The position numbers and the translations under genes are program-made. DNA of 15,850 nt from Thermoflexales bacterium (GTDB lineage: Bacteria; Chloroflexota; Anaerolineae; Fen-1058), in NCBI GenBank assembly GCA_016931085.1, contig JAFGFO010000059.1, forward strand, positions 1 to 15,850. Reading direction: 5' to 3'. The notes below the pieces were generated by a model. It worked only from the letters and a program-made list of their open reading frames with translations, was not told the origin of the DNA and searched no databases. Positions 83 to 15,850 of the stretch are shown in pieces. Numbering within the stretch: position 1 is the first letter of the stretch; every line of letters begins with the position of its first letter.

Positions 83-118
83 CTAGCAGGCGAAATTCCC
101 GTTTCTTCCAATCTGGTG

Positions 119-141
119 TATACTATGCTACGCATAGTATA
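119..141. promoter_or_regulatory. Perfect 10-bp palindrome overlapping a possible -10 box
   Basis: Arms at 119-128 (TATACTATGC) and 132-141 (GCATAGTATA) are perfectly complementary around a 3-nt centre. TATACT at 119-124 could be a -10 element, though no good -35 is visible. A 19-nt stretch (123-141) recurs exactly at 15549-15567, upstream of the inward-facing gene at the other end of the window. This suggests an operator, or a dispersed repeat, placed over the promoter of the GAF gene. The binding protein is unknown. Confidence 0.55.
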
Positions 142-213
142 TGCGCAGCACGAGATATAGGTTTGAGCGAATCGTCCGGCTCGAGCCAACAGTCGCGCAC
201 AGGAGATAATCTT

Positions 214-888: not shown

Positions 889-1701
889 ATGAAACTGGCT
901 GTCAACTATTCGCTGCAAGCCGCCGTGCTGCTGCGCGATGGCGCGATCGCGCTCGATGCGTTCAAGTGCCCCGATTGGCCCGACGTGATTGCGGAGGCCG
1001 GTGCCCAACACCCCCTGTACGTTCACTTTGGCTTCCGGGCTGGCTCCGGCGCGCTCGAGACGGTCGATTGGAAACACGTCGAAGATGTCCTGGCCCAAAC
1101 CGGCACCCCCTACGTCAACCTCCACCTCTACCCGCGCGTGGCAGATTTTGGCGTGGACGACCCGGCCGATGTTGACGACGAGACGGTCGCCCGGCGCATG
1201 ATCTGCGACGTGAAGCTGGTCGTCGAGCGCTTCGGACCAGAGCGAGTGATTGTGGAGAACATCCCCTACCCGGATCCCGACAGCGCCGTCCTGCGCACGG
1301 CCGTCGAGGTCAAGACGATCCGCCGTGTCGTGTGCGAGAGCGGGTGCGGCTTCTTGCTCGACATCGGGCACGCCCGTATCGCCGCCAGGAGCCTCCAGAT
1401 GGACGAGCGTGCCTATATCTCCCAACTGCCCGTCGAGCGCCTGCGCGAGCTGCATGTGACCGGCCTCGAGCACGATGGCCAATACCTGCGCGATCACAGG
1501 CCCATGACGGACACCGATTGGCCCACGCTGGAGTGGGTGCTGGGCAATATTCGAGCCGATAACGGGTGGGCCAAGCCGTGGGCCGTGGTCTTTGAATACG
1601 GGGGCATCGGCGACAAGCTCAAGAATCACAGCCAGGCCAAGGTGCTGGCAGCCCAAGTCCCTCGCCTGTACGAATTGGTGCACCGGGGGCTATCGGAATA
1701 G
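889..1701 (+). CDS. DUF692/MNIO-like TIM-barrel protein
   Basis: A 270-aa protein without a signal peptide. The order of motifs fits the DUF692 (UPF0276) TIM-barrel family, whose studied members (MbnB and relatives) are multinuclear non-haem iron oxidases that modify peptides. Candidate metal ligands are His46, His79 (NLHLYP), Glu123 (VENIPY), Asp158 and His161 (LLDIGHARI), His189 (ELHVTGLE), Asp202-His203 and Glu236 (VFEYGG). The region GCGFLLDIGH to ELHVTGLE is the most family-like part. It sits 6 nt after the GAF gene and 3 nt before the deacetylase gene, with no clear Shine-Dalgarno of its own, so translational coupling is likely. No precursor peptide or DUF2063-type partner is adjacent. 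The alternative is a xylose-isomerase-like sugar epimerase or isomerase barrel, which the sugar-related neighbours would favour. The fold is fairly sure; the reaction is not. Confidence 0.65.
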   Translation: MKLAVNYSLQAAVLLRDGAIALDAFKCPDWPDVIAEAGAQHPLYVHFGFRAGSGALETVDWKHVEDVLAQTGTPYVNLHLYPRVADFGVDDPADVDDETVARRMICDVKLVVERFGPERVIVENIPYPDPDSAVLRTAVEVKTIRRVVCESGCGFLLDIGHARIAARSLQMDERAYISQLPVERLRELHVTGLEHDGQYLRDHRPMTDTDWPTLEWVLGNIRADNGWAKPWAVVFEYGGIGDKLKNHSQAKVLAAQVPRLYELVHRGLSE

Positions 1702-7179: not shown

Positions 7180-7199
7180 TGAGACCTGAAACCTGAAAC
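7180..7199 (+). repeat. CTGARAC heptad repeat before the YfhO-type gene
   Basis: Three heptamers in tandem (TTGAGAC, CTGAAAC, CTGAAAC). The same 20-nt string occurs on the opposite strand at 13177-13196, directly before ubiX, and both copies are preceded by TTGAGC. It carries an in-frame TGA (7180-7182) that closes the frame upstream of the next gene. Confidence 0.75.
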
Positions 7200-7203
7200 G
7201 ATC

Positions 7204-9757: not shown

Positions 9758-9814
9758 CGCCATTTCCGAATGGCGCCGCCATTTCCGAATGGCGCCGCCA
9801 TTTCTTAATGGCGC
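9758..9814. repeat. Three tandem 19-bp palindromes
   Basis: Three head-to-tail units of CGCCATTTCCGAATGGCGC (9758-9776, 9777-9795, 9796-9814). Each has arms CGCCATT and AATGGCG around a 4-nt loop. Units 1 and 2 are identical; unit 3 changes the loop from TCCG to TCTT and keeps both arms. They lie between a likely promoter and the strong ribosome binding site of the next gene. A related copy sits at 11251-11267 in the S1 leader. Confidence 0.85.
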
Positions 9815-9848
9815 CGTGTCCTTATTCCAATACAGGGAGGCGAGAGTT

Positions 9849-10079
9849 ATGGCCCGCATCCGGTGCCACTATAACGACTGTATCCATCTAGAGTCCAAGC
9901 TGTGCAGCGCGGATTCGATCGAGTTGGACCCCGAGATGGGGTGTCTGACGTATACCCAGGAAGAAAGCGAAGATCTGCCTGATGAAGAGGAATGGGAGGA
10001 AGAACTCTTTGACGAGGAAGACTGGGAGGAGTTGGACGAAGACGATTTGGAAGACGAAGACGAGGAAGAGGAATGGTAG
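9849..10079 (+). CDS. Small Cys4 protein with hyperacidic tail (DUF1540-like N-terminus)
   Basis: A 76-aa protein. The N-terminal part has four cysteines (Cys6, Cys11, Cys19, Cys32; spacing C-x4-C-x7-C-x12-C) with the pattern CSADSIEL after the third, resembling the small DUF1540 domain, probably a metal-binding knuckle. Residues 38-76 are almost pure acid: 29 of 39 are Asp or Glu, none is basic, and Trp49, Trp59 and Trp76 are spaced along it. ATG 9849 has AGGGAGG at 9834-9840, 8 nt upstream, one of the best ribosome sites in the window; an upstream in-frame ATG at 9789 lies inside the palindrome array and is rejected. The gene stands alone and ends before a bidirectional terminator. Such a tail could mimic nucleic acid or bind cations or basic proteins; that is inference. 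Confidence 0.75.
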   Translation: MARIRCHYNDCIHLESKLCSADSIELDPEMGCLTYTQEESEDLPDEEEWEEELFDEEDWEELDEDDLEDEDEEEEW

Positions 10080-12618: not shown

Positions 12619-13175
12619 GTCGGCCACTCCTGGTACAGCGTGTTGTCAAAGCCCAGCCGCAGCAGGACACGCCCGACGATGTTGTCGATCAGCTCTTGGA
12701 GGGTTCGGGGTCGGGTGTAAAAGGCCGGAACAGGAGGAAAGATGACCGCCCCGCTGCCGGCCGCCTGGGCCATCAGGTGGATGTGACCGGGATGCAGGGG
12801 AGCTTCGCGCACGACCAGGATCAGCGGGCGACCTTCCTTGAGCGTCACGTCAGCCGCGCGCGACATCAGGTCTGCGTCGTAGGAGTGGGCCACCGCGCTC
12901 AGACGCTTGATCGAGCAAGGGACGATGACCATGCCGGAGGTGACGAACGAGCCGCTGGCAATCGCCGCACCTATGTCGTGCGGCGGGTAGACGGCGTCAG
13001 CCAACGCTTCCACGTCCGCGATCGCCCAGTCGCTTTCCTGCGCGATCGTTGTACGCGCGGCCGGGCTGATGACCAGGTGCGTTTCGGCCAGCCCGGCCTG
13101 TCGAAGGACCTCCAACAGCCGGATGCCCAAGATGGCCCCGCTGGCGCCGCTGATGCCGACGATTAAGCGCCTCAT
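12615..13175 (-). CDS. ubiX: Flavin prenyltransferase UbiX
   Basis: A 186-aa flavoprotein, the normal length for UbiX, which joins a dimethylallyl group to FMN to make the prenylated cofactor of UbiD-type decarboxylases. The N-terminal phosphate-binding loop GISGASGAILGIRLLE is at residues 7-22, then SGSFVTSGMVIVPCSIKRLS (74-93), with the conserved PCS and the SGS region, and REAPLHPGHIHLM (123-135). The ATG follows a CTGARAC heptad repeat by one base and has no Shine-Dalgarno. The gene lies 41 nt after def on the same strand. No ubiD is in the window; its partner must lie elsewhere. Confidence 0.93.
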   Translation of the reverse strand: MRRLIVGISGASGAILGIRLLEVLRQAGLAETHLVISPAARTTIAQESDWAIADVEALADAVYPPHDIGAAIASGSFVTSGMVIVPCSIKRLSAVAHSYDADLMSRAADVTLKEGRPLILVVREAPLHPGHIHLMAQAAGSGAVIFPPVPAFYTRPRTLQELIDNIVGRVLLRLGFDNTLYQEWPT

Positions 13176-13176
13176 G

Positions 13177-13196
13177 GTTTCAGGTTTCAGGTCTCA
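13177..13196 (-). repeat. CTGARAC heptad repeat abutting the ubiX start
   Basis: On the minus strand: CTGAGAC-like heptamer followed by two CTGAAAC units, then C and the ATG. The 20-nt string is identical to 7180-7199. In both copies TTGAGC lies just upstream (here contiguous, there separated by 3 extra bases). Confidence 0.75.
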
Positions 13197-15522: not shown

Positions 15523-15550
15523 GCGGCACATACCCTGCGGCACATACCCT
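15523..15550. repeat. Two perfect tandem 14-bp repeats
   Basis: GCGGCACATACCCT occurs at 15523-15536 and again, without a gap, at 15537-15550. The second copy runs into the palindrome at 15545-15567. It lies in the leader or promoter of the CNBD-PH gene (minus strand). Confidence 0.8.
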
Positions 15551-15567
15551 ATGCTACGCATAGTATA
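15545..15567. promoter_or_regulatory. Palindrome shared with the left-end promoter region
   Basis: Arms 15545-15554 and 15558-15567 match at 8 of 10 positions; 15549-15567 is identical to 123-141 in the same orientation. On the minus strand it contains TGGTATACT, an extended -10 form, about 95 nt ahead of the CNBD-PH start. It is a candidate operator over that promoter. Confidence 0.5.
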
Positions 15568-15591
15568 CCACAATTCGACCAGGCGCGGGAA

Positions 15592-15630
15592 CTAGACCCT
15601 AAAGGCAATTTGAAGACCTTGAGGGTCTAG
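15592..15630. repeat. 39-bp hairpin element with CTAG at both ends
   Basis: A stem CTAGACCCT (15592-15600) with AGGGTCTAG (15622-15630), one mismatch, then AAGG with CCTT and an 11-nt loop. CTAG at 15627-15630 is also the left border of the following MITE-like copy. There is no T-run, so it is not a classical terminator. Confidence 0.75.
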
Positions 15631-15750
15631 CAAGCTGTCGGAGAGACCTCCGTAGGGCAGGTTTCCATACCTGCCGCAAGCTCGGCGGCTATCCGCAGGA
15701 CGCCTTTGGCGTAGAAAGCCGCCCTACAAAACGCTCTCTCCGACAAGCTC
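15631..15750. mobile_element. MITE-like element, complete copy R2
   Basis: A 120-bp non-coding unit between CTAG at 15627-15630 and CTAG at 15751-15754. The terminal inverted repeats are AGCTGTCGGAGAGA (15633-15646, one base shorter) and TCTCTCCGACAAGCT (15735-15749). Inside are a 7-bp hairpin (15656-15662 with 15669-15675), GGCGGCT/AGCCGCC (15684-15690 with 15717-15723) enclosing an ACGCC-TTT-GGCGT hairpin (15700-15712), and GTAGG/CCTAC closing the set, a branched cloverleaf-like fold. It resembles a miniature inverted-repeat element; no transposase is nearby. Confidence 0.75.
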
Positions 15751-15754
15751 CTAG

Positions 15755-15850
15755 GAGCTTGTTGGAGAGACACCCGTAGGGCAGGTTTCCATACCTGCCA
15801 CAGGCGCGGCGGCTATCCGCAGGACGCCTTTGGCGTAGAAAGCCGCCCTA
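15755..15850. mobile_element. MITE-like element, copy R3 (right end outside window)
   Basis: Same orientation as R2, starting right after the shared CTAG with GAGCTTGTTGGAGAGA (15755-15770). It is nearly identical to R1 in the overlapping part and differs from R2 around 15799-15807. The junction R2-CTAG-R3 is itself a 36-bp near-perfect palindrome (15735-15770, one mismatch per arm). Confidence 0.75.

Follow-up and report, generated by a model that had tools for sequence, protein, structure and literature searches.

A repeat at both ends of the window

The window, by which we mean the whole stretch of 15,850 nucleotides analysed, carries flanking genes that look chromosomal by sequence, with Pfam matches for a GAF protein, an MbnB/TglH/ChrH-type protein, PIG-L, a GH4 glycosidase, a BadF-type ATPase and a YfhO-like protein, and further matches for triple-S1, CN hydrolase, flavoprotein, peptide deformylase and cNMP/bPH_2; a weak PMT_2 match fell below the cut-off. 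The MbnB/TglH/ChrH-type protein, encoded at 889-1701 (+) between the GAF and PIG-L proteins, matches PF05114, which covers RiPP precursor modification enzymes, at 46.8 bits (cut-off 25). An open reading frame of 96 amino acids at 9789-10079 (+), which contains several cysteines and whose C-terminal tail is strongly acidic, has no Pfam match, and two 23-nt inverted repeats, 96% complementary, lie 6 kb apart at 7180-7202 and 13174-13196. The closest protein match of the window lies on one JGI metagenome contig (85%), the next is at 51%, and the best among 396 class genomes is at 34%. For the last protein, the six best genome relatives are Chloroflexota MAGs, mostly Anaerolineae/Anaerolineales by name, at 26-31% identity, and of the 24 loci the other 18 match over short stretches and belong for the most part to other phyla. 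The host probably belongs to an Anaerolineae-like Chloroflexota lineage without close representation among the compared genomes, and the interpretation given below rests on Anaerolineae relatives rather than on the window's own genome.

Both ends of the window fall inside copies of a short repeat, which an earlier note on this DNA had described as MITE-like with CTAG borders. The one complete copy, R1, is 120 nt long (15631-15750) and has CTAG on its left at 15627-15630, by exact pattern match, and on its right at 15751-15754. Its left terminal inverted repeat (15631-15646, +; CAAGCTGTCGGAGAGA) was located by pattern match and end comparison and its right one lies at 15735-15750 (-); the two ends agree at 12 of their 16 positions, and the inner eleven (TGTCGGAGAGA) are a perfect match. 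The CTAG to the right of R1 is common to a second copy, R2, which begins at 15755 in the same orientation, was recognised by alignment and pattern match, and is cut by the window end (15755-15850, +), its right end lying beyond the window. A third copy, found by alignment at the left edge (1-82, +), is cut by the window start and bordered on its right by CTAG at 83-86. With one mismatch allowed, CTAGNNNNNTGTYGGAGAGA matches the window four times, each time with no mismatches (67-86, -; 15627-15646, +; 15735-15754, -; 15751-15770, +), and had no match in 200 shuffles of the window. CTAG itself is scarce in the window, with 13 found and 31.2 expected.

The repeat is short, lacks a transposase gene and is present in several copies, as expected of a MITE, and the CTAG borders hold on both sides of R1 and on the right of the left-edge copy. 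The three copies reported earlier are real as a repeat, although one is complete and two are truncated. The claim of recent or ongoing spread is weakened, since only one of the three copies lies wholly inside the window, and the local density may overstate copy number because both ends lie inside the repeat, as would be expected at an assembly break in a multicopy repeat. R1 is 90% identical to R2 over 100 nt and 93% identical to the left-edge copy over 89 nt. The common orientation of R1 and R2 and the CTAG between them would fit a recent local tandem duplication in place of two transposition events; however, R2 differs from the left-edge copy at only 1 of 58 shared positions and so stands closer to it than to R1, and we regard such a duplication as unlikely.

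A separate short hairpin bounded by CTAG (CTAGACCCT...AGGGTCTAG; 15592-15630), identified by sequence and fold, abuts R1, and its motif was absent from relatives in the loci scanned (L145 onward). A different palindromic repeat (ACTATGCTACGCATAGTATA) is present twice, close to the first at each end of the window (118-150 and 15536-15568).

A BLAST search with the R1 unit (E <= 0.001) through the class to which G001 belongs gave matches in at least 26 of 396 genomes; two candidates were scored in each genome, so that the counts are lower bounds. Among the genomes scored, G368 alone has near-full-length matches (77% and 74%), whereas in the others the similarity is mainly to the first hairpin (GTAGGGCAGGTTTCCATACCTGCC) and the sequence around it, which suggested that the unit has two layers, an outer and an inner one. 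The exact core GACGCCNNNGGCGTAGAAAGCCGCC had no match in genome contigs, a 26-mer related to the core had none in viral contigs, and the repeat had none among plasmids and phages. The 15-mer CTCTCCGACAAGCTC gave scattered single matches among the 80 listed of at least 120 viral stretches, which were judged to be chance.

Outer ends shared with IS1182-family insertion sequences

In G368, the same ends surround differing interiors. The end sequence CTAGNAGNNTGTCGGAGA occurs at 76 places in 30 of the 152 genomes of this relative's family (0 for the reversed control), and these places pair either as short elements of 105-200 nt or as long ones of 1.4-1.6 kb. Complete elements with these ends, 1,531-1,575 nt in length (1.53-1.58 kb), are present in G442, G453, G457 and G508. 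Those in G453, G457 and G508 contain open frames of 458-459 amino acids, for which the IS1182 model NF033551 (cut-off 270) gives 322-329 bits, and the element in G442 is of the IS1182 family too, with broken frames. The insertion sequences of G453 and G457 combine intact transposase frames with CTAG at both borders, and that of G508 has CAAG instead of CTAG at one border. The right end of R1, identified by pattern match and by comparison with the G453 element, differs from the end of that element, neighbouring positions included, at 1 of 23 positions (22 of 23 match). We conclude from these sequence comparisons that the outer frame of the repeat, as shown in relatives, represents the ends of an IS1182-family insertion sequence. 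The MITE-like character proposed earlier for the 120-nt non-coding unit is strengthened by this match, and mobility in trans gains support from autonomous IS1182-family elements with the same ends. The IS5-like transposase that had been suggested does not stand, as two elements with matching ends reached 325.9 and 322.5 bits with NF033551 (cut-off 270) and only 50.0 and 55.2 bits with the best IS5 models (cut-off 140).

An IS1182-family match lies near 9 of the 76 places with the terminal repeat, in 8 genomes and at distances of 58-174 nt; none was found in either of the relatives whose REP doublets are framed, G368 and G400. Genomes with an IS1182-family match are in modest excess among those carrying the terminal repeat (22 of 30 versus 13 of 30 without it, the latter being the first 30 such rows of the list and not a random draw; Fisher p 0.035), and matches over the cut-off occur in 5 versus 1 genomes, of 30 each. 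In G502:C49 (L285 501-1936), frame ends bounded by CTAG enclose a 400-amino-acid open reading frame like an IS1 transposase, at 79.7 bits, below the cut-off of 100.

The earlier note had also pointed to a 4-bp YTAR-like target. We joined the flanks of 11 copies and searched the junctions in 152 genomes (two candidates scored per genome, so that counts are lower bounds); a pair of ends could not be made out in the other 3 of the 14 copies. At least one of the 11 junctions tested has a fully aligned empty site: when the G492 copy is compared with G226, the alignment runs unbroken from one flank to the other, and in place of CTAG-element-CTAG there is one TTAG, preceded by one extra T. The copy in G458 gives one-sided support, with G459 93% identical over 467 nt through one CTAG from which the element is absent; the right flank is unalignable and the right border of this copy is CCAG, not CTAG. 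For the G368 copies at C104 and C134, orthologs without the element were found, with junctions too diverged to read a duplication, and the remaining seven copies had no readable empty site among the matches listed. A single YTAG in the empty site of a relative, set against CTAG on both sides of the filled site, makes target duplication the most likely reading of CTAG, including the borders seen in the window, and agrees with the target that had been proposed. A 4-bp repeat would also fit the IS1182 member ISPse1, whose table row in the excerpted source reads 1653, 16/16, 4, which we take as length, ends and target repeat (PMC3281130).

The REP doublet inside the frame

The interior of R1 reads GTAG-GGCAGGT-TTCCAT-ACCTGCC, followed by the reverse of GTAG-GGCGGCT-(enlarged loop)-AGCCGCC. 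The first unit (15652-15675, +) folds as a 7-bp stem with the loop TTCCAT and is paired in relatives as well; in the second (15684-15728, -), the fold has a 7-bp stem and an enlarged loop that holds a hairpin of its own. With GTAG directly 5′ of a short palindrome in two units that are inverted relative to each other, the interior constitutes a REP doublet, of the kind mobilised and recognised by RAYT (Y1/HUH) transposases. In the window (15684-15728) and in G368 (L151, L177), a short hairpin, not the same from genome to genome, enlarges the loop of the second REP, as if small palindromes were inserting into such loops.

The REP pattern (GTAGGKYNGGTTTCYATACCNRMC, one mismatch allowed) was found in 23 of 26 genomes, with 105 copies in G046 and none for the reversed control. 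Across 18 distinct units from relatives, 95.2% of stem cells are paired, a percentage raised by the omission of 5 of 23 24-mers judged to be chance (pairing at 3 or 4 of 7 positions); two REP-like sequences with poor pairing were kept. Both sides of the stem have changed in 20 cells, compared with 5.4 in shuffles, which ignore relatedness, and 0-2 in slid controls. Relatives thus carry many dispersed REP copies with compensatory stem changes, and the compensatory changes in the internal stems for which the earlier note had proposed a test are present. That note had also read these stems as a hint of an RNA role, which does not follow, since the two are hairpins of REP type, each tagged with GTAG, and belong to a different repeat system, and covariation is expected for REPs and gives no evidence of an RNA role for the MITE. 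One might argue for a functional RNA structure or a regulatory element, retained because of its fold and mobile only secondarily, from the compensatory changes together with the very stable branched fold of the repeat (RNA -59.1 kcal/mol, z -5.46; DNA -32.2, z -4.71, versus shuffles). However, the window has no Rfam family at the gathering score, and covariation of this sort is typical of REP hairpins, which occupy many unrelated sites; we consider this explanation very improbable.

Of the 26 REP-bearing genomes, 19 have Y1_Tnp (RAYT-type) genes over the cut-off, as do 5 of 14 control genomes, although the control is not a REP-negative comparison. The same REP lies within 1.5 kb at 2 of 30 RAYT loci (3 copies versus 0.37 expected), at about 285 nt from the gene in G064:C91 and on both sides of it, at about 200 and 83 nt, in G079:C21. 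Two loci that were fetched because a match lay near have a REP at about 180 nt (G079:C96) and about 1.2 kb (G054:C394). Counting G079:C96, the distance to the same REP is below 310 nt for three RAYT-type genes, one in G064 and two in G079. By position, the association between this REP and RAYT genes appears close where present, and sparse. In G253 (L229 1097-1994), a different GTAG palindrome, in four copies, flanks a RAYT-type gene on both sides and makes a further REP-RAYT pair in Anaerolineae.

Frame and cargo as a probable mobile unit

By eye, 13 of the 21 REP loci in G368 have no frame end and the rest have one or both. An automatic count gave 25 REP matches, 5 with the left end, 5 with the right end and 1 with both, a tally that takes in likely chance matches in L337 and misses degenerate ends and the one-base-shorter REP of L151. 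Conversely, the 14 distinct short framed elements hold a REP doublet in five cases (the window, three in G368 and one in G400), a CGCTAAG-type repeat in six (G368, G410, G441 twice, G458 and G492) and other sequence in three (G094, G378 and G423). The CGCTAAG-type repeat also occurs free, since in G441 it was found at 40 distinct places (40 of 69 candidates scored), 7 of them near an exact terminal repeat and 33 not. These comparisons show, in the relatives, that frame and REP cargo occur independently of each other.

Two species named below, A. variabilis and H. neapolitanus, are presumably Anabaena variabilis and Halothiobacillus neapolitanus. One could suppose that the whole 120-nt unit is a complex REP or BIME moved by RAYT alone, its outer inverted repeat being an extended or target palindrome; RAYT-type genes do occur in 19 of the 26 REP-bearing genomes, and REP dimers within longer palindromes are described, in the excerpted report, from A. 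variabilis and H. neapolitanus (PMC3733652). However, the outer repeat also bounds whole IS1182-family insertion sequences and elements free of REP, and CTAG is duplicated at one tested site, so that we find it quite unlikely that RAYT alone moved the unit.

We propose instead that each copy is probably a chimera, a non-autonomous IS1182-family MITE with a REP doublet as cargo, moved in trans into CTAG. An IS1182-type DDE transposase would recognise its ends in trans, insert the unit at CTAG and duplicate those 4 bp. The cargo would be a REPIN-like doublet of two inverted GTAG-tagged hairpins, from a family that has spread on its own in Anaerolineae and is of the kind recognised by RAYT. The copies in the window share frame, spacers, cargo and, where present, the unusual enlarged loop, and the chimera therefore probably spread as one unit after capture. 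Capture may have occurred by RAYT inserting a REP into a MITE, or by new ends forming around the palindrome. By inference, such a transposase is or once was encoded in the genome from which the window comes, and the cargo is acted on by a RAYT of that genome.

The usual account of REP repeats makes them passengers of a single dedicated transposase. In the present case, a REP hairpin doublet would sit within the frame of an insertion sequence that differs in both chemistry and target, giving one tiny element the signals of two mobility systems, and REP copy number in such genomes need not mirror RAYT activity alone. A tentative extension, which we hold to be possible rather than likely, is that IS1182-type ends in Anaerolineae are a general frame that repeatedly captures unrelated palindromic repeats, at least two of which are also independent, and so gives REP doublets a second, DDE-driven and RAYT-free way to spread; the hairpin of the cargo may guide capture.

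An IS1182-family MITE is in print, MITEPye1 of Paracoccus yeei (PMC11578231), which like the present unit is short and non-coding and has 18-bp IS1182-like ends, 4-bp direct repeats and long stem-loops. It comes from a different bacterial class, and its description, as excerpted, mentions no REP or other repeat cargo (PMC11578231). REP dimers are reported as GTAG-tagged palindromes in inverted orientation (PMC3733652; also PMC8266576), as in the window, and as lying near RAYT genes, with GTAG repeats recorded in Chloroflexi (PMC3733652, in part). Unlike those dimers, the doublet described here lies between insertion-sequence ends in a unit bounded by CTAG. The palindromes of A. variabilis and H. 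neapolitanus resemble it in enclosing a REP dimer within a longer inverted repeat; in that report those palindromes were never encountered without REPs and were not recognised as transposon ends (PMC3733652), whereas the present frame occurs with other cargo and on complete insertion sequences. Searches of open-licence literature, from which subscription work is mostly absent, listed no paper seen to identify such a REP-enclosing frame as insertion-sequence ends or to describe REP doublets as MITE cargo in Chloroflexota. As far as these partial sources extend, IS1182 MITEs (PMC11578231) and REP dimers inside palindromes (PMC3733652) are known and their combination is new. It offers a testable answer for the nature of the long palindromes around some REP dimers, which were noted in 2013 (PMC3733652, in part).

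The duplication of CTAG differs from IS1272, an IS1182-family member for which insertion without target duplication is reported in the excerpted source (PMC5678879). The same source says that the family includes palindrome-targeting members (PMC5678879), and palindromes are weakly enriched at the sites studied here, with a flanking arm of at least 7 nt at 2 of 21 sites compared with 2.2% of 318 control CTAGs (Mann-Whitney p 0.009); the signal was weak and a palindrome target was not adopted. Two G368 copies (L233 and L197) sit within small palindromes centred on CTAG or nearly so, with arms of 9 and 7 nt.
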